This document shows positions 1 to 44,665 of a stretch of 47,106 nt of DNA, one piece after another. Under the pieces are notes generated by a model. That model was not told the origin of the DNA, ran no database searches, and was given only the letters and a program-made list of their open reading frames with translations. Position numbers and translations under genes: made by a program. Positions within the stretch are counted from its first letter, which is position 1, and each line of letters opens with the position of its first letter. Origin of the DNA: Spirogloea muscicola (taxonomy: Eukaryota; Streptophyta; Zygnematophyceae; Spirogloeales; Spirogloeaceae); contig WELB01000068.1 of the NCBI GenBank assembly GCA_009602725.1, positions 548,574 to 595,679 of the forward strand, in the 5' to 3' direction.

Positions 1-3000
1 CTCCCGGCACCATCGCCCCCACCTGCGCCCCCCCCATCTCTCCCGCTGCCGTCTTCCCCGCCTGTGGCATCCGCGCGCGTGCCGTGCCCAACTTGTCCGC
101 GGGATTTTGCTACTCCCCGCGGTATCTCCTCGCACCGGAGACACTGCAAGGGGTATCCCAGCCCCGCTGGCTCGACGCCCGATGCGGCCGCCGCAGCCTG
201 CACCCCCAATGCCACTGTCTTGGCAGCCGCACTTCAGGAACAGATCCCGGAGGAGCATATCTCGCCTCCCGCCCCAGGGTCGCCGTCACCACCGCCGTCG
301 CCGCCGCCGTCGCCATCTCCGCCGCCGCCGTCGCCGCCGCCGCCGCCACAGAGTCCACCTTCGCCGTGCCAGCCAGCCTATGCGGCCGTCGCGGCTGGCG
401 GCCCCATCGCCACGGTCCTGGCAGCCTCACCTCAGGAGCAGACCATCGAGGAGCATGTATCGCCTCCCGCCCGTGAGAAGCAACGGGCACCTGCTTTATC
501 GACTCAGCCCTCGAGATGTGAAGGGCCCCCCGAGGTGAACCCGGTCTCTCCGCAGGGTGCCTTGTCCCCTGGGCGTGATGCTGCCCCTGATATCCCCGTG
601 AGTGTGCCTTCCGTGGCAGCAGGGCCGCCGTCCCCACCGCCGTCGCTGCCGCATCTGCCGCCGTCTCCACCGTCGCCGACGTCGCCACCACCTCCACCCC
701 AGCGTCCACCTCCGCTGAGCCAGCCACCTGCCTCGTCCTCGCCGCCGCTTCCCGGGTCTGCGCTTCTGTCTTCCCAGCCACCCACCATCCCGCCTCTCAA
801 GCCGCCCTGCCCCCCGCCGTTGCCGCCCCCGACGCCGCCCTCGCCACCGCCGCCTCCGCCTCCACCGCACGCACCAACTCCACCTCCCTCGCCCCCACCT
901 CGCTCGCTCGATCCCCTGCTGTGCCAGCACTGCCAGACGACCTTCACCGGGCGGTCAGGCCGGGCCAACCACGAGCGCGCCTGCGCGCTCAACAACAACC
1001 GTGCGGCACAGGCGCGCAGCGCAGCGGCTGCGGGCGGCCGCCGGGGCAGACCAGGCAGGCCTGTCCCTCCCGCGCCAACCCCTCCCACGCCTCAACACTG
1101 GCAGTGGCTGGCCGGCCTCGACCTCGCTGCCATCGACCGCCAGGCGGCCCTCCCGCTCCTCCGCCATGTGCCCCGCGGGGTGCGCCCGCACATTCGCCGC
1201 GCGCTCCGCCCGGCGATGCAGCGGATTGCCAGGGACCACCGGGAAGAGGCGGCTTGGAAGCAATTTCTCCTCTTCCCCCGGCTACTGCTCGGCCGGGCCC
1301 CCCACGACAGCCGCTGGCAGGGCCAGCAGCCCCTTCTGGAGCGCGTCCGATTGTTTGAGAGCGGCCATTGGGAGGAGCTTCTCGCACGCCAATGACGCAG
1401 CGGTGGCGGCCTTGGCGGCGAACCGAGGTGATGCGCGGGCCGCACCAGACAGGGCCGCCAATGCTCGCCGGGCTCTGCGTTTCGGTCACGCGGGCGAGTT
1501 GTCAAGGGCGGTCCAGGCCCTGGACGACGCGGTGCTGGCGCCCACCAATGCTGCCACAAGAGCGGCCCTGGAGTCCCTGCACCCTGCGGCTCGCCACCCC
1601 CTGCCCCCGTGGCTGGCCACCTTCGCACCGCCGGAGGAGGTGGTCCTCGAAGCCGACGCCCTGCGGAGGGCCCTGCAGAGCAGCCGCCGCGCGGCCACGG
1701 GAGGTCCTTCCCACATGCTCGCCGAGCATCTCCGGGAGATCTTCGTGGAGGGCGACCCGGCCGACTTCCAGGCGCTCCACCAGGTGTGCCAGCTCCTCGC
1801 TCGCGACCAGGTCCCGGCCAGCGTTCGCGGCGTCCTGTGCACCAGTACACTGCTGGCGCTCAGCAACGCCGGTGGGGGGGTCAGGCCCATCGCCATCGGT
1901 GAGGTGCTCTACCGCCTGGTGGGGCGTGCGCTCTGGCAACAGCACGCAGGGCAGGCCCAGGCACACCTGGCGCCCCAACAGTTTGGTGCGGGGCTGCGGA
2001 GCGGCGGTGAGACGGTCGTGCACGGCGTACGGGCCGCCCTGGACTTGCATCCCGCATGGGTGGCCATGGCGGTCGACGTCCGCAACGCCTTCAACAGCGT
2101 TGATCGTGGTGTCATCGCGGAGGGGCTGAGAGAGGCCTTCCCCAGCCTTCTACCCTTCTTCAGGCTGGGGTACGGTCAGCCATGCGAGCTGCAGTGGCGG
2201 GCGGGGGTTGATGCGCTGGAGACCCTCCACTCCACCAGGGGCGCGCGCCAAGGGGATCCACTGGCGGGGTTCTACTATGCGCTGGCACATCACCGTGCGC
2301 TCCAGGCAACGGTCGCGGTTCACCCCGGCGTCCTCGTGCCGACATACGCTGATGACACCACGCTGGGGGGGAAGCCAGAGGATGTCGCAGCTGCCTTTGA
2401 CACCCTCCAAGTGCAGCTGAACGCGATCGGCCTGGATATTGGGGCGGACAAGTGTAGCGCCTGGTCCCCTCAGGGCCTGCCAGCCCACCTGCGCCTGCCC
2501 GAGGGTTGCCAGACACCAGCCGGGGGCCTCACCCTCCTCGGCGTCCTCTAGGCGCACCTGCCTTCGTGACCGAGCAGCTGCAGGCGCGGCTGCAGGAACA
2601 CCTTCGGCCAGCGGACCGTCTCCACGCGCTGCAACACATGCAGCTGGCGACCGCGATGCTGACACGGTGCATTGCGCAGCGGCCTCAATATCTGGCCCGC
2701 ACCATCCCCCCCTCGTCGGCGGTGAAGGCTGCGTATGCGGCCTTTGACTCCGGCATCCTGGCGTCCGCGGCCACCCTGGTGCAGCACCCCGCGTTCCTCA
2801 CCACACCAGCTGCGCTGCTGCAGGCTAGCCTGCCGACCAGCCGTGGCGGCTTGGGATGCCGCTCAGTTGCCCGCGCCTGTGATGCGGCCTACATGGGTAG
2901 CTGGGCTCAGGTGGCAGCCCCAATGTGCCAGAGGTTCCTCGTGCACGGCCAGCGCGCCCTGGAGCGGGCGGCAGCTGAGGTGGAGATCGGTCAGCTGCCT

Positions 3001-3768
3001 TTTCAGGTTGCCCTCCGCTCTGCCCGCGACGGGCTCCTGGCGGTCCACCCCCACATGTCGGAACAGACTGTTCCTTTCATCCACCTCGCCCACTCCCCAG
3101 ACCAGCGTGCCCAGGCACGCTTCTCGACGCTGGTTGAACAAGCGGCCTCCGACCAGGTGGTGGAGCTTCTCCCTCCGGCTGACCTTCGAGGGCACGCCCG
3201 GCTGCTTTCAGCCTCCTCCCCTGGGGCGGCGGCGTGGCTATCAGCGCTCCCACTCCACGCGGCGCTCACTATGCCCGACGAGGTCTTCCGGACGGCGGTC
3301 CACCGGCTCTTGGGCCTCCTCCCTCCCTGCCTCGTGGGCGTCACTCAATGCGAGTGCGGTGCCCGTCACATTGATCCTGCGGAGCTGGCCGCCCACATGC
3401 TCCGTTGCGCACACGGGGGCGAGCGGACCGCTTTCCACGACCTCCTGCGCGATGGAATGCAGGGGGTGTTTTCGGAGGCTGGCTTCAAGGTCGCGGTGGA
3501 GAACTCCTCCATCATGCCCATCCAGCTGAGCGGGGACGGCCAGCCCCATACAGACGCGCCGACCTGGTCGCCATCCCGCCCGGCGGCGGTCCCCGCATCA
3601 TCCATGATGTGGTGACAACTGACTGCATCGACTCCGCCAATCCCACCAGATCGGCGTCGTTTGCAGGGCACGCGGTCAGCCAGGCGGCCCCGGGCAAGGA
3701 GCGAAAATATGCTGATCACCCGGTGGAGGATAAATTCGCGGCCCTGGGGATGGATGTACACGGGGCTA
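1..3768 (+). mobile_element. LINE copy 1 (RLE-type non-LTR retrotransposon), degenerate, 3' truncated
   Basis: The longest LINE copy, already open at base 1 and so cut by the window edge. The N-terminal part (to 1395) has two C-x2-C-x12-H-x3-C zinc fingers (about 88-150 and 922-985) around a long Pro/Ser-rich linker. Reverse transcriptase follows: motif A (VDVRNAFNSVDR, about 2074-2110), motif B (ARQGDPLAG, about 2245) and motif C (YADD, 2345-2356). The C-terminus has a C-x-C-x12-H-x3-C knuckle (about 3350-3400) and a PD-(D/E)XK-like stretch (about 3555-3620), typical of R2/NeSL-like restriction-like endonuclease LINEs. Compared with copy 2, an extra A near 1391, a lost base near 2548 and a shift near 3550 break the frame. 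The last 80 or so codons are missing and the element ends at an inverted junction with copy 2. It is a pseudogene; the clade assignment is inferred from domain order only. Confidence 0.9.
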
Positions 3769-6743
3769 GCTCCGCAGGATCAACGTATCGGGCACCGCAC
3801 TCGCATTGAGTGACGCCCACGAGGCAGGGGGGGAGGAGGCCCAAGAGCCGGTGGACCACCATCCGGAAGACCTCGTCGGGCATAGTGAGCGCCGCGTGGA
3901 GTGGAAGCGCTGATAGCCACGCCGCCGCCCCAGGGGAGGAGGCTGAGAGCAGCCGGGCGCGCCCTCGAAGGTCAGCCGGAGGGAGAAGCTCCACCACCTG
4001 GTCGGAGGCCGCTTGTTCAACCAGCGCCGAGAAGCGTGCCTGGGCACGCTGGTCTGGGGAGTGGGCGAGGTGGATGAAAGGAACGGTCTGTTCCGACATG
4101 TGGGGGTGGACCGCCAGGAGCCCGTCGCGGGCAGAGCGGAGGGCAACCTGAAAAGGCAGCTGACCGATCTCCACCTCAGCTGCCACCCGCTCCAGGACGC
4201 GCTGGCCGTGCACGAGGAACCTCTGGCACATTGGGGCTGCCACCTGAGCCCAGCTACCCATGTAGGCCGCCTCGCAGCCGCGGGCAACTGAGCGGCATCC
4301 CAAGCCGCCACGGCTGATCGGCAGGCTGGCCTGCAGCAGCGCAGCTGGTGTGGTGAGGAACGCGGGGTGCTGTACCAGGGTGGCCGCGGACGCCAGGATG
4401 CCGGAGTCAAAGGCCGCATACGCTGCCTTCACCGCCGACGAGGGGGGGATGGTGCGGGCCAGATATTGTGGCCGCTGCGCAATGCACCGAGTCAGCATCG
4501 CAGACGCAAGCTGCATGTCGTGCAGCGTGTGGAGACGGTCCGCTGGCCGGAGGTGTTCCTGCAGCCGCGCCTGCAGCTGCTCCGTCACGAAGGCAGGTGC
4601 GCCTAGGGGGACGCCGAGGAGGGTGAGGCCCCCGGCTGGTGTCTGGCAACCCTCGGGCAGGCGCAGGTGGGCTGGCAGGCCCTGAGGGGACCAGGCGCTG
4701 CACTTGTCCGCCCGGATATCCAGGCCGATCGCGTTCAGCTGCACTTGGAGGGTGTCGAAGGCAGCTGTGACATCCTCTGGCTTCCCCACCAGCGTGGTGT
4801 CATCAGCGTAAGTCGGCACGAGGACGCCGGGGTGAACCGCGACCGTTGCCTGGAGCGCACGGTGGTGTGCCAACGCATAGTAGAACCCCGCCAGTGGATC
4901 CCCTTGGCGCGCGCCCCTGGTGGAGTGGAGGGTCACCAGCCCATCACCCCCCGCCCGCCACTGCAGCTCGCAGGGCTGACCGTACCCCAGCCTGAAGAAG
5001 GGTAGAAGGCTGGGGAAGGCCTCTCTCAGCTCCTCCGCGATGACACCACGATCAACGCTGTTGAAGGCGTTGCGGACGTCAACCGCCATGGCCACCCACT
5101 CGGGATGCAGGTCCAGGGCGGCCCGTACGCCGTGCACGATTGTCTCACCGCCGCTCCGCAGCCCCGCACCAAACTGTTGGGGCGCCAGGTGTGCCTGGGC
5201 CTGCCCTGCGTGCTGTTGCCAAAGCGCGCGCCCCACCAGGCGGTAGAGCACCTCACCGATGGCGATGGGCCTGACCCCCCCGCCGGCCTTGCTGAGCGCC
5301 AGCAATGTACTGGTGCACAGGACGCCGCGAACGCTGGCCGGGACCTGGTCGCGAGCGAGAAGCTGGCACACCTGGTGGAGCGCCTGGAAGTCGGCCGGGT
5401 CGCCCTCCAGGAAGATCTCCCGGAGATGCTCGGTGAGCATGTGGGAAGGACCTCCCGCGGCCGCGCGGCGGCTGCTCTGCAGGGCCCTCCGCAGGGCGTC
5501 GGCTTCGAGGACCACCTCCTCCGGCGGTGCGAAGGTGGCCAGCCACGGGGGCAGGGGGTGGCGCGCCGCAGGGTGCAGGGACTCCAGGGCCGCCCTTGTG
5601 GCAGCATTGGTGGGCGCCAGCACCGCGTCGTCCAGGGCCTGGACCGCCCTTGACAACTCGCCCGCGTGACCGAAACGCAGAGCCCGGCGAGCATTGGCGG
5701 CCCTGTCTGGTGCGGCCCGCGCATCACCTCGGTTCGCCGCCAAGGCCGCCACCGCTGCGTCATGGCGTGCGAGAAGCTCCTCCCAATGGCCGCTCTCAAA
5801 CAATCGGACGCGCTCCAGAAGGGGCTGCTGGCCCTGCCAGCGGCTGTCGTGGGGGGCCCGGCCGAGCAGTAGCCGGGGGAAGAGGAGAAATTGCTTCCAA
5901 GCCGCCTCGTCCCGGTGGTCCCTGGCAATCCGCTGCATCGCCGGGCGGAGCGCGCGGCGAATGTGCGGGCGCACCCCGCGGGGCACATGGCGGAGGAGCG
6001 GGAGGGCCGCCTGGCGGTGGATGGCAGCGAGGTCGAGGCCGACCAGCCACTGCCAGTGTTGAGGCGTTGGAGGGGTTGGCGCGGGAGGGACAGGCCTGCC
6101 TGGTCTGCCCCGGCGGCCGCCCGCAGCCGCTGCACTCTGCGCCTGTGCCGCACGATTGTTGTTGAGCGCGCAGGCGCGCTCGTGGTTGGCCTGGCCTGAC
6201 CCCGTGGTGAAGGTCGTCTGGCAGTGCTGGCACAGCAGGGGGTCGAGCGAGCGAGGTGGGGGCGAGGGCGGTGGAGTTGGTGCGCGCGGTGGAGGCGGAG
6301 GCGGCGGTGGCGAGGGCGGCGTCGAGGGGCGGCAACAGCGGGGGGCAGGGTGGCTCGAGAGGCGGGATGATGGGTGGCTGGGAAGGCAGAAGCGCAGACC
6401 CGGGAAGCGGCGGCGAGGACGAGGCAGGTGGCTGGCTCAGCGGAGGTGGACGCTGGGGTGGCGGTGGTGGCGACGTCGGCGACGGTGGTGACGGCGGCAG
6501 ATGCGGCAGCGACGGCGGTGGGGACGGCGGCCCTGCTGCCACGGAAGGCACACTCACGGGGATATCAGGGGCAGCATCACGCCCAGGGGACAAGGCACCC
6601 TGCGGAGAGACCGCGTTCACCTCGGGGGGCCCTTCACATCTCGAGGGCTGAGTTGATAAAGCAGGTGCCCGTTGCTTCTCACGGGCGAGAGGCGACACAT
6701 GCTCCTCTATGGTCTGCTCCTGAGGTGAGGCTGCCAGGACCAT
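3769..6743 (-). mobile_element. LINE copy 2, inverted near-twin of copy 1
   Basis: Same family and nearly identical to copy 1 but in opposite orientation, joined tail to tail with no spacer. One open frame of about 756 codons (5986-3716) runs from the linker end through RT (motif A about 5060-5100, YADD about 4801-4812) into the CCHC knuckle. It stops after the DPAELA segment, so the nuclease core is lost. The 5' part (6743 to about 6320) matches the proline-rich linker of copy 1, but the frame shifts near 6320 before the second zinc finger. The 5' boundary is near 6742, inside the linker. Neither copy keeps its 3' end at the shared junction, so this is not two simple insertions. A fold-back rearrangement or an assembly join are the alternatives. 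Confidence 0.88.
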
Positions 6744-14139: not shown

Positions 14140-16063
14140 TCAGGAGTTGCCGCCCGCCTCGTCGTCTGACTCATTGTCTCGTTCCCGGAATCGTGGATTC
14201 TTCTCCTGCACATGCATCAGATGCCTGCCTGAAGAAGCAAGCATGACAGGCATGTACTGCAGATGCAACAATTTGGGGGACACGTAATCCACGCCAGGGG
14301 ACACAAACGCCCTGTTTGACTGACAAGAGACTCATGCATTGTCTCACTGGTGCTGCCCCAGTGTCAACAGGCTTCTGCAGAGCAGCTTCTCGTTGCACAT
14401 CGTCCTCACGATGCCTTCGTTGTCGTTTGGGACCTGTTGACATGGAAGTAACCCCAGAAGTCTTAGCATGCTACTACATTGCTTTCGCAGTGCCAAGCAG
14501 CAATAGTGCCAAGCAGCAAATGTGGATGATTGGCTTGACCTCTTTGACCCGGGTGACCACTGTAGCCACCTGTGCCTTGTCTCCCACTATCTACACACCC
14601 AGTTGCATCACCGATCATGAGAATACCGGTACGGCAGCCACATGCTAGCCAGCAGTGCAAAGACTTCCTTAAGAGCACAGGAGGTGCTGCCTAGAAGGTT
14701 GTGACAAGGAGCTAGTGGTCAATCACTCTCATACTGCAGAAGCCTCAGTAGGTACTTGCGAATACGAATCGAGGGTAGTGGAGCAAGATGAAAGAGACAT
14801 GTACGTCAAGACAGTGATGCTTACAAGGAATCTGCTGAGGGAAAGAGGCATAAGGAGCCATCAATGCATTCTGCAAAGGGTCAAACGGGTACAGTGGCTG
14901 AACTGCCAGCTCTTTCTGTACCAACTTGCCGTAACCTCCCCTGCGTGTCCATCTTGCCAAGTCAAGGAGATAAGAGATATTGCACACAGATGAGGAGACA
15001 GGCGGGAAATCCAGCAAGTGAAGGTGGGACAATGCAGCTCCCTTCAGTTGACAAAGTAGGCTGAAGTCAATCTGAACAACACAAAGAGGATGAAAAGCAG
15101 CACAGTGGAGAGGATATCTGGGTCGTAGTCAGTCCTGTACTCATCGCGGACCTGGCCGTTGCCCAGCAAATCAAACAACAAGCCGCCAAGCAGCTTAGCT
15201 CAGGCTCCCCCTGACGCTGCCTTACGGGCACACCAGCCTGGAGGATGCGCCTGCTCCTTTGAGAGAGGGCAAGGTGCAGACCCTGTACATCTGAAGCATT
15301 TGAAGCAGTCCTGACCCTGGATAGGTCAAACTTGGGCATTTGCGCATTTGCTAAGGAGCTCAAGTAGCTCAGAAGCAGATCCAACATCCATGAAAATCCG
15401 GCTGGGACGGGCTTGGTGACTGCAGCAGGGCGTACCTGCCCTCCATGGCGACCCCTGCCCCATTGTCGGCCATCCTCGAAGCCCCAGTCGAAGTCCACGC
15501 GGATGGGGCGGTCATCCAGAATCGTGCCGCTGATGTACTTGACTGCGTCCTCAGTGTCCTCTCGAGAGTAGTACCTGGCGAGGCACCGAACGGCGGCTCG
15601 GCCCATAAGCAAGAGGGCTGAGCTTGACAGGTGCTGATCCCCTCGCACGGTCGTGGGTAGCGGCAGAGTGCATTGCCTCTGGCAGGGGCCGGGGAGGCCC
15701 AGTGGCTCACCGGACGAAGCAGAAGCCGCAGGGCGTCATGGAGTTCTTGTCCAGGCCCATGATGATGCGCCGGATCTCCCCAGTGCGCGAGAACACCTCG
15801 TACACCTGCTCCTCCGTGGTGTAGAAGGACAGGTTCCCGACGTACACCGTCGTGGACGCGCGCAGCGCCGCCTCGAACGCCGCCTGGTCGCCGTGGAAGT
15901 GGCGGTCCTTGTACGCAGAGATGGGCTCCCGCGCCTGCCCGCCCCGGCTGGCCTGCCGCACTCAGCACGCCGCCGTCGAGCAGGGCTAGGCGGTGGCCCG
16001 CACTCTCCCGGTGCGCAGCGAAATCAGGATGCAGGTGGCGGGGACCTTGAAGAGGCGCGCCAT
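14140..16063 (-). CDS. CBP20: Nuclear cap-binding protein subunit 2 (CBP20)
   Basis: Small subunit of the nuclear cap-binding complex, which binds the m7G cap of nascent RNA polymerase II transcripts. Seven exons with closing phases: 16063-16046, 15934-15711, 15574-15436, 15151-15118, 14944-14825, 14433-14348, 14205-14140, total 228 residues. It starts MARLFK as in plants. The RRM shows [19 protein letters not shown] (RNP2) and CGFCFVRYYS (RNP1), followed by the cap-pocket segment [18 protein letters not shown] and [12 protein letters not shown]. The C-terminus is basic then acidic ([11 protein letters not shown] ... [14 protein letters not shown]), as in plant CBP20 tails. Intron 4 (14945-15117) has AT-AC ends, the others GT-AG. 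Exons 5-7 are less conserved, but phase and charge pattern support them. Confidence 0.93.
14945..15117 (-). other. AT-AC (U12-type) intron 4 of CBP20
   Basis: The 173-bp intron begins ATATCCTC, close to the U12 5' splice-site consensus. It contains TCCTTGAC, a match to the U12 branch-point consensus, about 17 nt from its end, and finishes ...GGACAC. Splicing there gives ...DYDP-G-RGGYGK, exactly the conserved CBP20 reading. No GT-AG pair in the region gives that reading. It was read directly from sequence; use of the minor spliceosome is inferred. Confidence 0.88.
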
Positions 16064-37681: not shown

Positions 37682-40600
37682 TCACAACTCATCGTGCCCG
37701 GCCTCAGCCCCACTGCCCAATGCCGCCTCCTGCTCGCCTTGCCCTCCCGTGGCTCCTGTCCCTGCCGCGGCTGCCTCCTCACCAGTCGCCGTGGCATTCA
37801 TCCCCTCCGCTCCACCCAGCGTGGCATTGGTGGAGTTGGCGACCACTGTGGAGTTGACATCCAGCTTCGGGCTCAGCTTGGGCTTTGGCTTGGGTATTCT
37901 GCTCAGCTTCGCAGTCTGTGCGCAGCCACACAACGCATAATTTGCATGGCCTGTCAGAATAAAGCCTGTCGCTTCACTGGCTCAAGGACCCACTCCTCTT
38001 TAAGTCCTTGCTTTGTAATCAGTTCTCTGACATCTTCTTGGCAAGCTCAAAGTCCTCAGCTCACCTTCTCCATGAGCATGCCCATCTTCCTCAATACTTC
38101 AGCGGATGTAAAAACTGGCGGCTTGTCCAGAGGGGTTCTGCATTTGAGAAGGTGGACTTGAATACCTCAACTAGTGCCCATGCTCTTTCTGGGCAGGCTC
38201 AAAGCTACTGCTAGAAGAGTCACCACCAGTGACAACCACAATCAGTCCAGATACTCAAGATGCCCTACCAAGCAGCTATCAAGAAGCCCGATCATTTGCC
38301 TGGTGCTTTGCACAGATATCCAAAGCCTGACAGGCGGAAAGGTGCGCACACCTTTCTTGTTCCCGGACCTTCTCAGTCAGCCAAGACTCTGCCGCCTCCA
38401 CTTCCTCAAGGACCTGCAACAGCAGCATCACTCAAGGAGCTCATGCAAGCGAGATGCCCCCCAATGAAAACTCGACAAATAGTTTAACTTGCCAATCGAG
38501 TGATTTGTCAGCTGGACACACCTTGGCTTTGTCGGTGTCATTAATCCAGGGCTTCGCGTTGGCCATCTCATCAATTTTCTGAAATGTCAAGCTCCATGAG
38601 GAAAACGATAGTGCAAATGAGCTCATCCTCCAGACCAAACGTCTCCATGGACAGGATTGCTTGAATTGGGTCGGAAGGAGTGAAGCAATGGCAAGCTCAC
38701 CTGGCGAACTTCTGCAGCAGCCCCCTTAAAGGCTTCAACACCAGCAGGTCTTGCTGTGAGCTCTTCCACCCTGGTGAGAGCTCGCCAGTAGAATCAGATC
38801 AAACGTAATGAAGAGCGAACAACAAGCAGAGCTACTGAGGCTTTCAAGCTGGGAAAGAAAGCAGAGCACATGAAATCTCCTTCTAGTCGTTAGTCGGTAA
38901 CGACTAGAAGGACAGCTGAAGCTGTTCGGCCTGGTCCAGTAAAGGTGACAGCCATGACGGCCAAGCAGTAGGAGAGCTCTACGGACTTCTCTTCGTCTTG
39001 TGTAGTACACACACACAATGGAAGCCTCACTGCAGAACAGATAGAAAGCACAAGCCAAAGTGGTTCTAGACACCAACCAGTAGAATATCTGATCACCAAC
39101 ACCCTTCAGGCTTGCCAAGCGGGCCCTGAACTCTGTGGCATTGACGTTATCTCCTTCTGCATAAAGCCAATCCTCAACCTGCAACCACAAATCACGCACT
39201 GGTTACTGAAAGAGCATCTGCACGTACTCGATGACCTGATATCCTGAACCTCAGACATCTTGGAAATCAGTTACACTACATCCTTTTGCTAGTGCTTGCC
39301 CAGCACTGCAATGCACACAAAGTGACCCTGCACCTCGCTCATCTTTGCTCGGAACTCATTTCGCTGGTCCTCTGTGGACACCTTGTTGACTCCGTTCTCA
39401 TTCCCAGCTTCCAGCTGAAGCAAGTAAATTGGTGTCAGCATCATGATTGCTCCGCTGTCTGAGCTGCCTAGAAGCAGTCTATGTATATAGTGCCATCTCG
39501 GGACAAGCTAGTGAAGGAGTCAAAAGGCAACTTGCTTACAACACGGTGAGGCATGCACATGCATTTCTGGCAACCTTATCTAGAGTCGCAAAAATGTAGG
39601 ACTCCAGACTGTTCTTGGCCTCCTCAGTCTCCCGCTTGCTGGTAGCCTTCATTCTTAGAATTTCCAAACGTTCTCTGCCTCTTTGAATTGCCTCGACAGA
39701 AAGACCCCTCACTTCACTCGAAGATACATCCTTGATCTGGGTATACAGGTCAAGCAGTATAAGGATGAGCAGCAAGCACATGAACCATTGTCAAGGTCTG
39801 CAGATCAGATCACTTGCTTGGTCCTCACCATCAGTGGAATGCGGAGGTCCTCACCATGAGCGGAATGCGGATGGTTCGTTTCCTGAGCTTTTTCTTCATC
39901 TCCACAGTAGGAGCCTCGGTGGTTTCATTCTCGGAAGCAGTCATATTCATGGGCTGCAGTAAGTCTTCTGCTGTCTCTCCAGCACCTTCTTCGTCTTTGG
40001 AATCTTCCTGTAATTGGGACTCAACCTAATGTCAAGCCAGATAAGACCTTCACATGCAACCCAGTTGCATTGCATCTGTGCAAGTCACTGCTGAATGTGA
40101 ACTCTGGACCTGCATAGATACAGACCTCGTCCAAAGCAGTTGCACTGCCAGTATCGGTAATATTTGAGCTGCCATCCTCTGTAGCAGTTGCCACTATTGT
40201 TGCATTGACTGGCTGGCTCTCATTCTTGATTAAGACAGGGACCTCAATCCACTCCTGTATCTCCACCACAGCTTCCACTTTATCCAGTGATGCAAGGCCG
40301 CTGCGTGTCAGCGCCAAGTGCATATTCAGCTTGATGGGTTGCGAGAGATTGAACGAGCTGTACTTGGCCGTTGCATTGGCAACACCAGTAATGGAATATG
40401 TCGCAATCTCCTCGGTTGCAATTCCAGGAGGAAGTGCGTCATTGCTGTCGTATTGCAGCCGCACTACAAAATCCTCAGACTGGCCTTTCAGCGGTTTAAT
40501 GATCTGTAGAGTGATATGAGGACATCACTATGAGTCAAAGAACATGACTGCCACGACAAGCAGGCTACAGTATGCTGTGGTGAAGACATGTATATCAGAC

Positions 40601-43346
40601 AAGACCCAGGATGGAATGCTTCGCTTTCACGGACAAGGGAGGTCAATTGCCAATGCTTAAGAACAAGGATGTTTCTCAAACATTCTCACCTTTGTGGGCA
40701 ATCTTTTGAGCCGTGGAAACAAAAGCTGTGGTTCACCTCCACCCACTGTGATTGCCTCGTCGGTAGCATTCTCAAGTTGCAAGTGTACTGCATAAGGCAA
40801 GCCATCTACCATGCCAATCTTCCGATTAAGCTTGAAACCGTCACTCAAATTAGCAGCTACCAGTGAGGCGCCCAAAGCCATGGCCTCATCAGCGTCCATG
40901 TGGCGAGCTAGGCCCTTGTCCCCTACAAACTGGGACAGCACCTGCTGAAGCTTGGGTACGCGGGTAGCTCCTCCTATAAGCTCGATCGAGTGAATGTCCT
41001 GCATGGTGAGGTTTGCATCGGCAACTACGTCTTTCACAGGTGCCAGCGCCCTGGGCCACAGATCCGCACACAGCTCCTCAAACTTCTGCCTCGAGATTGT
41101 GGTCCTAACAACCAAAGAGAGGATGAGGTTGAGGTGATCCATGTGCAAAGTTAGTCAATAAACAGGTCTGCATTCTGCCAAATTTGTCTAATCCTGCCAG
41201 ATCCGAGCTGGACAACAAGTGGCTCAACTTCAATCTACCTGCACATACCTGAAGTCTCTGTCCTCAAAGAGACCTTCAACAGACAACGGAGCATCAACAT
41301 TGGCGCTGAGAATCTCCTTCGTCCTCTTCACCTCCTTTTTCAGCTTGGCCATGGCTTTTGGAGATGACCTCACGTCAGCACCAGAGCCAAGCTTTTCATT
41401 GAACTCGGTTGCAAAGTGTTCGACAAGTCTTGCCTCCATTGTCTGACCACCAAGTGTGGCGTCCCACCTTATCGCTTTGACCTGCTCAGGCCAGCAGTCA
41501 TTCCAAGCCAGTGCGTCCTCACAGAGAGCAACCATAACAAGGAAAGGACAATATAATGTCTCGATAATGCACAAGGACGAAAATCCAGAAGGGGAGCCTA
41601 AAGCAGCCTGGGTAAGAGAGTGTCAATAGCCTGCATGCGTTGCCTACAGAGATTGCAAGTTGGGGAGCACAATTGGAGAACTAGTAGAGTGATGACCTGG
41701 AATTGATTGAACGTAACAGGCTTTCCACGCTCTTTGACAGTATAAGCTGAGAAGTGAAGGACGGCAGCGTAGGCGCTATTTGCTCCCACATCATACACGA
41801 CAATGTCACGAGAGGCATTGCTGAAGTCTGCAGAGGTCGAATACACGCCCTTGATGTTAGGCTGTGTCGTGATGAGAAGCCATGATCAGCATCATTGCTG
41901 TCTTAGTGCACCGTGCTTGCACATGGTTTCCTTGACAGCTTACAAGGGAGGAATCAGCCCCACCTTTGTCTATGCCATATTGAAGTGCAACTCCAGCATG
42001 CTCGTTCACCAAGGACATCACGTTGATGTCAGCAATCTGGGCTGCATCAAGGATTGCTTGCCTTTGGCTCTGCCCAAAGTATGCTGGCACAGTAATGACT
42101 GCAACGATGTGAAGTGCAGATTTGTCAGCTCCAGCAGGCAGCCACCGTCTCAGACCTTTGCGTGTGTCGAGGTTGTACGTAACCATCTGTCGAGAGGCTC
42201 AGACACGTAACAGTGCCGTGCACACCAACCTCCGTGCAAACGCTAGCTCCCAATAAACTTCAGACGCATCACCAATGACGGCCTACACTAGCGCTACTGC
42301 ACCCGTCCTTTCACTGAGGCCTGTTGACTGTAAGGAGGGGAACCTCACCTACATTCTTAATGATGGACTTCGAGTGTGACTCGGCAAGAGTGCGGACGTA
42401 GTTGAAGAGCATTGCCATCAACTCCTCAGGATGTAGGACTTCTCCATCGTGCGTCTATACCAAAAGCGCGACAGGCTGTGGTGTTCAGGTGCAAAGGTGC
42501 AGCAGACCATATGCTGAAGTCCTCAGAAAGTGCAGGTCCTTCTGCTATCGAGGACTTACTTTTATTTTACAGGTCCCCCGTTCTTCGTCACGCACGAGCT
42601 CGTACGGAAGGTAGCTTCCATTGAGCAAAGCCTGCCATTCATCGAGGCAGATGAGGCGTCAGGGGGGGTGTGGAGGTAACTACGGCCACAGCGAAGCTGC
42701 AGCTGTACAAGAGCTCAAGGCCCAGAGGCAAGAGGCAGTCGGGTCCGCGCGCGCAATGCCTCAGTGAGTGCGTATGAAGAGATCGAGTCGGACTCGGATC
42801 GCAGACGGTGTCGCTTGCACCAGTGAATGCTCCTATCTCTACAAGCAGCACTGCCCCAACTCCGTGCTGCTCAATTCGCGGGAGTCCTGGTGGATCGGGG
42901 CAGGCTCGTGAAGTGCAACGCCTCGGCCGTCAGAGGCACCGAGCCTCGGAGCAGCTGCCTCGGCGGTCGCTCACCTGCGCCGCCGGCATTGGCTTGCCGA
43001 CGAGGTCGCGCAGGCGCGCGTAGACGCGGTCGGGGTAGCGCACGAGCATGCCGGCGGCCTCCTCGGACGCGAGCGCCTCGCCGCGGACGTAGGCGACGAG
43101 CGCAGGGGACTTGCGCTTGGAGATCTCGTTGATGGCGATGGTGATGGGGCTCTGGCCGGGCCGCGGGTTGACCACCGCCACCTTGAGCCACTCGGAGCCA
43201 TAGTCCACGCTCGCCACGGCGGCCCGCGCGGGCGCAACCAGCGCGACAAGCAGCGCCAGAAGCAGCAGCGGCAGCGGCGCCGCCGCCGCTGCCGGCGGCG
43301 GCCGCGCATGCGGCGGTGTTCGCCACGCTGGCGCGCCGGCCGCCAC
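37682..43346 (-). CDS. HYOU1: ER-lumenal Hsp70-family chaperone HYOU1/GRP170 (plant Hsp70-17 type)
   Basis: Large Hsp70 relative that assists folding and nucleotide exchange in the ER. Seventeen exons with closing phases: 43346-42975, 42631-42560, 42454-42349, 42098-41964, 41827-41697, 41481-41249, 41104-40690, 40503-40126, 40025-39855, 39736-39575, 39414-39334, 39178-39078, 38770-38701, 38578-38522, 38413-38352, 38137-38065, 37915-37682; 950 residues. The signal peptide has a Leu-rich core (residues about 24-36) ending ...APARA before [16 protein letters not shown]. The ATPase domain shows [32 protein letters not shown] and [17 protein letters not shown]. Asn-rich glycosylation-like sites follow ([29 protein letters not shown]). 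A helical C-terminus ends in HDEL. GPs of this family replace the canonical DLGTT loop, as here. It is divergent from GNA1. The donor of exon 9 is duplicated. Confidence 0.96.
38879..38911. repeat. Perfect 13-bp inverted repeat in HYOU1 intron 12
   Basis: CCTTCTAGTCGTT (38879-38891) and its exact complement AACGACTAGAAGG (38899-38911) around AGTCGGT. Strong hairpin inside the intron between exons 12 and 13. No other copy was seen in the window. Confidence 0.9.
39820..39871 (-). repeat. 26-bp tandem duplication of the exon 9 splice donor of HYOU1
   Basis: Units 39820-39845 and 39846-39871 differ at two bases. Each carries, on the minus strand, the codons before the junction and a donor (ATG then GTGAGGACC). 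Use of the first donor met (ending 39855) keeps frame with exon 10; the second adds 26 nt and shifts frame into a stop. Confidence 0.9.
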
Positions 43347-43391
43347 GTCGGCTGGTCTGCGAGGAAGGCCGTCTCGCGGCCCCCCTGGGCT
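43347..43391. promoter_or_regulatory. 45-bp head-to-head interval of HYOU1 and GNA1
   Basis: Only 45 bases separate the start codon of HYOU1 (minus, 43346) from that of GNA1 (plus, 43392). Both starts are the only sensible ones: the signal peptide for HYOU1, and the family start for GNA1. A shared promoter with overlapping 5' UTRs is implied. No TATA-like box is visible in this GC-rich stretch. Confidence 0.75.
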
Positions 43392-44665
43392 ATGGCCGGC
43401 GGCGGCCTCGTCCTGCGCCCGCTGCAGCGCGCCGACTACGACCGCGGTCGCGCCTCCCGCCCCCGCCGCGGCCTGGCGGCTGCTGCCCGCCTCTGAGCCA
43501 GCCCGTGACGCGCGGGCGTGGCCTGTGCCGGCGGCTGCAGGCTACCTGGACCTCCTGGCGCAGCTCACGGTCGTCGGCTCCGTCTCGCGCGAAGCCTTCG
43601 AACGTGCGCCCGCCACGCCCCCTCCCCGCCGCCCGCCGGTGATGCGGTCTGGCGAGCCTTGCCACCTCGCGGCTTGGCCCTGCGTGCTGGCTCACGCGGC
43701 GGAGAGGGCTGGAGCGCATGGCCGGAGCCGCAGAGAGGCTCGGCGAAGTGGAGAAGCGCGGCGAGGACCACCGCATTCTCGTCATCGAAGGTGCAGAGCA
43801 GCATGCCGGCTCTCTGCGCCCTCGTGCACGCAGTCTCGCTCCATCCTGCAGTCTCCTCGTGCGCGCCATCCTCTGCTCACGCCCCGCTGCCGGCCTTCGT
43901 CCGGCCGCGGACAGACACGGCCCTGGACCGCATCGTCGCAACGGGCACGGTCCTCATCGAGTACAAGATTCTGCGGCAGTGTGGGAAGGTACTCCCCAGT
44001 GCCGCTTTGTCCAGACTGACACAGCGGCAAAGGCCGTGGAGTGTGGTAGGCAAGACCCCTGCAGCGCCCCGCCCTCCTGCAGTCCCCGATCTAGCTTGCA
44101 CCTGCCCTGCCAGGTCGGCCACGTCGAAGACGTCGTCGTAGCGGAGGACATGCGTGGCAGGCACCTGGGCCAGAGGTGAGCTCCTTCCTGCCACACGCTG
44201 CTCGGAGACAGCGTGCTTGCCCACTGATGGCCCCTGCATCTGAAAACGGGCCACTGCACTCCCATCCAATATCAGCTCACCGCTGTCGCCTGTCTGCTTC
44301 GCAGAATCCTTGCGGCGCTTGATGAGTATGCAAAGGATGCTGGCTGCTACAAGGTGAATCTCACATGCTTCAATGCTGGTCTGCATACATAGCCCGACAA
44401 GCCCGCAGTATTGTGGAGGTAAAGCATGGCACAGGTTTCCAGCTGCAGACTTGGATGGTGGTAGCAGACGTGCTTCTGTAAGGCTAGAATTGGCCTCCCT
44501 TTCGATTTCATGCGCACTGCGCGCCTTCTCTCGCTTCTGCTGGACTGACGGAGCAGCTTGGGGCTTAACATATAGGTCATACTGGATTGCAACGAGGCAA
44601 ATGTACCATTCTACGACAAGTGCGGATACAAGCGAAAGGAGTTCCAGATGGCCAAGTACTTCTGA
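43392..44665 (+). CDS. GNA1: Glucosamine 6-phosphate N-acetyltransferase
   Basis: Transfers acetyl from acetyl-CoA to glucosamine 6-phosphate, a step of UDP-GlcNAc synthesis used for N-glycans, GPI anchors and chitin-like polymers. Seven exons with closing phases: 43392-43446, 43541-43603, 43707-43790, 43915-43988, 44114-44175, 44305-44353, 44576-44665; 158 residues, the usual family size. Blocks: VLRPLQRADYDRG, YLDLLAQLTVVGSVSREAFE, ATGTVLIEYKILRQCGK, GHVEDVVVAEDMRGRHLGQR (acetyl-CoA loop), ILAALDEYAKDAGCYK and LDCNEANVPFYDKCGYKRKE. The last intron (44354-44575) carries a LINE 3' UTR remnant. The first exons are very GC-rich, the last ones not. Confidence 0.95.
44485..44545 (+). repeat. LINE subfamily B 3' UTR remnant inside GNA1 intron 6
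   Basis: TGTAAGGCTAGAATTGGCC, CCTCCCTTTCGATTTCATGC and GCACTGCGCGCCTTCTC match the UTR at 31690-31745 and 16365-16435. It lies wholly within the intron in sense orientation. Confidence 0.8.

Follow-up and report, generated by a model that had tools for sequence, protein, structure and literature searches.

The window, i.e., the whole stretch of 47,106 nucleotides from Spirogloea muscicola analysed here, carries on its minus strand a gene for CBP20, the features of which are the following:

16046 to 16063, minus strand: CBP20 exon 1 (coding), 18 nt from the ATG at 16063, encoding MARLFK
15711 to 15934, minus strand: CBP20 exon 2, 224 nt, after GCAG, with an RRM match
15436 to 15574, minus strand: CBP20 exon 3, 139 nt
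15118 to 15151, minus strand: CBP20 exon 4, 34 nt
14945 to 15117, minus strand: putative U12-type AT-AC intron of CBP20, 173 nt, phase 1
15109 to 15117, minus strand: 5' splice site ATATCCTCT of this intron, identical in the copy on contig C314 and ATATCTTCT in that on contig C300
14961 to 14968, minus strand: branch-site element TCCTTGAC, identical in all three copies from the element through the AC end
14825 to 14944, minus strand: CBP20 exon 5, the 3' limit being inferred from GTAAGC

A search of the genome (153 Mb in 471 contigs) yielded three copies of CBP20, namely the one in the window and those on C300 and C314, and exons 1 to 4 measure 18, 224, 139 and 34 nt in each of them. S. muscicola is described in passages of PMC7994812 as a streptophyte alga whose genome has been triplicated, and 126 RRM matches are listed in its genome, many of which, by eye, turn up on two or three contigs with almost the same score. 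The donor of CBP20 intron 1, GTCCCC (16045-16040, minus strand), is unusual and is retained in all three copies.

Elsewhere in the window, a long open reading frame at 3716-6436 (minus strand) matches a reverse transcriptase (RVT_1), and another long one at 719-2551 (plus strand) looks similar to it by eye; both are probably non-LTR retroelements. The region 40657-43541 (minus strand), with an HSP70 match at 40657-41151 and open reading frames up to 43541, suggests by eye a gene like that of the ER protein HYOU1, while the fragments 40021-40521 and 42930-43538 gave no Pfam match.

Signals and reading frame of the fourth CBP20 intron

The intron between exons 4 and 5 starts with ATATCCTCTC and finishes with ..TCTCCTTGACTTGGCAAGATGGACAC. 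The branch element is followed by sixteen nucleotides that end in AC, and the branch A (context TCTCCTTGAC) is 17 nt from the 3' end of the intron in all three gene copies. The 5' splice sites of U12-type introns have an RTATCCTT-like consensus, and the CBP20 sites, ATATCCTCT in two copies and ATATCTTCT in one, conform to it; they depart from ATATCCTTT at one and two positions, respectively, that is, at +8 and, in the C300 copy, also at +6. All three branch elements likewise agree, close to the 3' end, with the U12 consensus TTCCTTRAY given in the relevant part of PMC5932401. Across the copies the intron measures 173-180 nt with an A+T content of 50-53%, and its last 26 nt, comprising the branch element and the AC, are identical despite many differences in the intron and its flanks.

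Joining exon 4 to exon 5 (15118 to 14944) yields DYDPGRGGYGK, as in human CBP20, and the protein restored by the AT-AC ends aligns with human CBP20 (PDB 1h2t) with an E-value of 2e-62 and gap-free at the junction; the unspliced frame runs into a stop. We scanned the alternatives with the donor anywhere from the first base of exon 4 onwards and the acceptor between 60 nt upstream and 20 nt downstream of the AC. Dinucleotide-legal, stop-free and frame-keeping splice choices number 18 in the window copy and 33 and 16 in the remaining copies. Of the 18, the AT-AC pair alone gives DYDPGRGGYGK. The first-pass annotation, which had proposed a U12-type AT-AC intron at this place and had stated that no other splicing restores the conserved reading, is borne out in ends, branch element, branch distance and frame, the latter statement holding among the choices scanned. 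Assuming equal base frequencies, and with the junction position fixed by protein homology, we estimate the chance of encountering ATATCC exactly at the junction at ~1/4000, that of a terminal AC at 1/16 and that of TCCTTRAC within ~14 positions at ~1/2300, the product being ~1e-8. Judged from these signals, the CBP20 AT-AC intron is in all likelihood real.

Minor-spliceosome genes and further minor introns

Small nuclear RNAs were sought with Rfam models at their gathering cut-offs, and 14 genomes, prokaryotic as far as named, served as controls. Three contigs matched U12 at 80.1-81.1 bits against a cut-off of 53, with the branch-binding GAGUAAGGAAAA intact; U11 matched on four contigs (45.8-59.6 bits; cut-off 39), its AUAAAGGG being unchanged; and U6atac gave three matches over its cut-off of 33 (83.2-85.5 bits), with a fourth below it at 21.4 bits. 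None of the 14 control genomes gave an over-cut-off match for U11, U12 or U6atac, and no relatives of U6atac were found in the viral or the prokaryote contigs (0 and 0). Nine of the ten U11, U12 and U6atac loci (L001-L006, L008-L010) contain TATCCCA ~70-80 nt upstream, which we take to resemble the upstream element of plant snRNA genes and which is apparently a common promoter element of these genes. The fourth U11 locus (L007; C439:1913-2051) is devoid of it and is probably a pseudogene. Between copies of the same RNA the identity is 92-100% (95-100% when L007 is left out), and the downstream flanks are 35-54% identical, with the exception of one U11 pair at 82%.

Over-cut-off matches to CENATAC/CCDC84 were found on two contigs, C7 and C4 (E-values 2.5e-26 and 6.3e-26). 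According to passages of PMC8280824, CENATAC promotes the splicing of AT-AN introns in human cells, and in plants a minor intron takes part in its regulation; by motif, no U12-like intron was recognised in the two algal loci. The Rfam model of U4atac gave no match at E<=1 among 48 of 1771 candidates scored, a search that is weak at this genome size and does not show absence. A pattern complementary to U6atac matched at seven places (two in the control), none with a third copy; a candidate on C240 matched neither U4 nor U4atac, and the remaining matches were judged from their letters alone. For the U11-48K CHHC zinc finger (zf-U11-48K), a six-frame search with a 25-position model gave a best hit of 18.3 bits (cut-off 21.1); the model exceeded its cut-off in one of the 14 control genomes. 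This search, too, is weak at the present genome size and does not show absence. Of the minor spliceosome that the genome had been expected to need, the U11, U12 and U6atac genes and CENATAC are hence at hand, while U4atac and U11-48K were not found in these weak searches.

Besides CBP20, an NHX5/6-like gene contains a secure AT-AC minor intron, which is present in all three copies of that gene (C58, C90, C155). The reading GVSVALxCAL (x being S or L) is followed by an intron that begins with ATATCCTTT and contains TCCTTGAC ten nucleotides (N10) before its end, and continues with LFKYAGLSVYK. The exons on C58, joined by hand, match the Na+/H+ exchanger family (Pfam E-value 8.4e-14) and best match NHE6 (E-value 7e-21), in an alignment that is gap-free at the junction; a gap of two residues occurs some ten residues further downstream, close to where the next exon is joined. 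Passages of PMC4892727 name NHX5 and NHX6 as U12-intron genes of Arabidopsis.

Pattern searches of the whole genome added little that is secure. The pattern TATC..TTTCCTTAAC, which covered short introns only and has a branch form absent from the secure introns, was not enriched (12 matches vs 38 in the reversed control). TATCCTT..TCCTTRAC gave 30 matches vs 11 in the control, with TCCTTGAC in 29 of them and the preceding letter being A in 14, G in 7, C in 7 and T in 2. When five homeologous sets comprising 12 loci were aligned, set B (the NHX5/6-like gene) was the sole intron with these sites, so that the enrichment by itself proves little; in sets A, C and E the supposed branch site looks coding by eye, and set D begins with TTATCC. 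The pattern ATATC..TCCTTGAC gave 260 matches vs 67 in a control that differs from it in word composition. Within the first part of these matches, we examined 86 places in addition to those already covered by the preceding pattern, leaving out some that were mostly apparent repeats or coding pairs, and judged the spliced readings by eye; among these places, none further was convincing beyond two tentative cases. One is a candidate AT-AC intron at C44:575661 (ATATCCTTTCTT..TCCTTGAC..GCAC), which would join ..TTASLRE to FLVQKVLQM in a protein with no significant Pfam match and no PDB match. The other is a homeologous candidate at C26:301641-301750 (L071/L102) and C48:560016-560123 (L083), with 5' site ATATCCGCAG and branch element TCCTTGAC, for which GT-AG alternatives exist that would insert 10 or 11 residues. 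The protein gave no Pfam, NCBIfam or PDB match, and its single bacterial match (L143) concerns an unrelated stretch; the gene looks SDR/epimerase-like, and the protein family is not known to have an insertion at that site. A suspected excess of ATATCTGC among the matches yielded no convincing intron.

The altered 5'-site element of U6atac

The three U6atac genes, whose altered sequence had not been foreseen by the first-pass annotation, are located as follows:

C40:67983-68101: U6atac gene L008, GCC at nucleotides 12-14
C294:115190-115309: U6atac gene L009, GCC at nucleotides 12-14
C69:305419-305538: U6atac gene L010, GCC at nucleotides 12-14

The Rfam consensus has AAG at nucleotides 12-14. 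The 5'-site element thus reads AGCCGA in place of the canonical AAAGGA in all three genes, GAGAGAAGGUUAGC is preceded by GAGCC where the consensus has GAAAG, and the altered letters GAGCCGAGAG stand against GAAAGGAGAG in the canonical form. Allowing up to one mismatch, the pattern GANNNGAGAGAAGGTTAGC occurs at four places in the genome vs two in the control, comprising the three U6atac genes as exact matches and a place on C52 with one mismatch (GATCGGAGAGAAGGTTGGC); no canonical U6atac copy emerged from this genome-wide search of an assembly that may be incomplete.

In passages of PMC4980772, U6atac GG14/15 is described as pairing with CC5/6 of the 5' splice site, from which it follows that nucleotides 12-14 face +8, +7 and +6. 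Three of the six nucleotides that pair with the 5' site are therefore affected, and in-register pairing drops from 5/6 to 4/6 for CBP20 and from 6/6 to 4/6 for NHX. Prediction of the free duplex was of no help, since other registers are preferred for several 5' sites. Given that U11 is unchanged and nucleotides 12-14 of U6atac are changed, the secure 5' sites follow U11, and the contact of U6atac with +6 and +7 should be weaker here than usual. It is tempting to speculate, and we offer this as a possible though rather doubtful reading, that the lineage rewrote the 5'-site-checking nucleotides 12-14 of U6atac (AAG to GCC) while keeping U11, U12 and its minor introns. The U6atac helix would then rest on +4, +5, +8 and +9, leaving +6 and +7 to be read only by U11, and a shift of some 5' sites towards the new U6atac would have begun. 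The C at +8 of CBP20 fits the new G12, and pairing at both +7 and +8 would be possible for the ATATCCGC candidate (C26, C48), for which GT-AG alternatives exist; with so few introns, both fits may be due to chance. We regard the combination of a changed U6atac with U11-compatible 5' sites in the secure introns as unexpected and as the most interesting part of the present findings. The altered U6atac would make testable in nature the assumption that pairing of U6atac with +6 and +7 is indispensable.

Probable origin and removal of the intron, and known systems

The group of algae to which S. muscicola belongs is the sister group of land plants. For Arabidopsis and rice, CBP20 exon lengths are printed in PMC5932401 as '18t, 224, 139, and 34 nt', where we read '18t' as counted from the ATG. 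The sections of that paper on ten land plants give CBP20 exons 1-4 as equal in length, except in Selaginella, whose exon 2 is 3 nt shorter, and place a U12 AT-AC intron at the exon 4/5 boundary in all ten. In each of the three algal copies the intron falls after coding nucleotide 415 (18+224+139+34), with the phase found in land plants. Because the exon lengths equal the published ones, we identify the algal intron with land-plant CBP20 intron 4, an orthologue of a known intron; the comparison of positions supports the earlier suggestion that it occupies the land-plant site. Since the alga is a streptophyte, the intron would date back at least to the common ancestor of alga and land plants, and its near-invariance in plants would then predate plants.

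Very probably, streptophyte CBP20 ancestrally had this U12-type AT-AC intron as its fourth, and the alga has kept it at the codon and in the phase that it has in land plants; the minor spliceosome would remove it. The sequence signals, the orthologous position and the conservation in three copies argue for the intron itself, and the snRNA genes with their upstream element and the CENATAC-like genes for the machinery. U11 would pair with the 5' site ATATCCTCT and U12, through GAGUAAGGAAAA, with the branch element UCUCCUUGAC; U6atac, together with U12, U5 and U4atac, would carry out the removal, and CENATAC would support the AT-AC class. For this process we infer transcription and splicing, as well as U4atac and the U11/U12 proteins.

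Other explanations have to be weighed against removal by the minor spliceosome. The major spliceosome could instead remove a GT-AG intron with GTACAG in exon 4 as its donor and, as its acceptor, the CGCAG that lies four bases into exon 5, yielding a CBP20 without YRTDYDPGR. This frame-keeping pair is present in all three copies (with donor GTATAG in C300), but its use would remove residues conserved with human CBP20 and would leave the identical stretch from branch site to AC unexplained, and the letters of the GTACAG donor follow from Glu-Tyr codons; we regard the explanation as very improbable, while GTACAG-to-CGCAG splicing might possibly occur as a minor product. We regard it as equally improbable that the sites are right and the intron is of the U2-type AT-AC class, removed by the major spliceosome. 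Such introns exist, as part of PMC8280824 records, yet TCCTTGAC with its branch A at 17 nt, followed by only 16 nt of mixed sequence, speaks against this, as does the U12-type class of the land-plant intron at this site in the portion of PMC5932401 concerned.

Finally, the minor spliceosome might be decaying, so that U11 and U12 still recognise the intron, U6atac pairs poorly and most CBP20 mRNA retains the intron, perhaps as a regulatory switch. The GCC at 12-14 of U6atac, the lack of enrichment of TATC..TTTCCTTAAC among short introns, and the outcome of the weak searches for U4atac and 48K are in line with decay; nonetheless, we consider it unlikely, since U11, U12 and U6atac are each conserved in three copies with a common upstream element, the CBP20 and NHX signals are conserved in three copies each, and the retained CBP20 reading contains a stop.

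On the whole, the earlier interpretation is partly supported. Its surprise at minor introns in an alga was overstated, since a paper had already described such introns in Chara and Klebsormidium, which are streptophyte algae like Spirogloea; its main text contains no word beginning with spirogloea, zygnem or mesotaenium. Neither this CBP20 intron in algae nor a change in the U6atac element is reported in the passages searched in the open-licence literature. When compared with land-plant CBP20 intron 4 as characterized in sections of PMC5932401, the algal intron has the gene, exon lengths, AT-AC ends and U12 branch element in common, and with 173-180 nt it falls in the land-plant short class (76-284 nt). 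It differs in the purine upstream in the branch element, which is G in the alga (TCCTTGAC) and A in almost all plants covered there, in its A+T content (~65% in land plants), and in being present in three CBP20 copies.

The algal U6atac matches the whole consensus model (Rfam RF00619, 1-126) and is identical to it at nucleotides 15-29; apart from 12-14, it also differs at 6-8, ahead of the element. As described in passages of PMC4980772, a CC5/6GG mutant of the 5' site is defective in transfected cells; U6atac GG14/15CC rescues it in part, and almost fully once U11 GG6/7CC is added. On the doubtful reading given above, the altered algal U6atac would be a natural counterpart of this U6atac suppressor. 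In the alga, the change lies on the U6atac side, and the secure introns are without a matching one.
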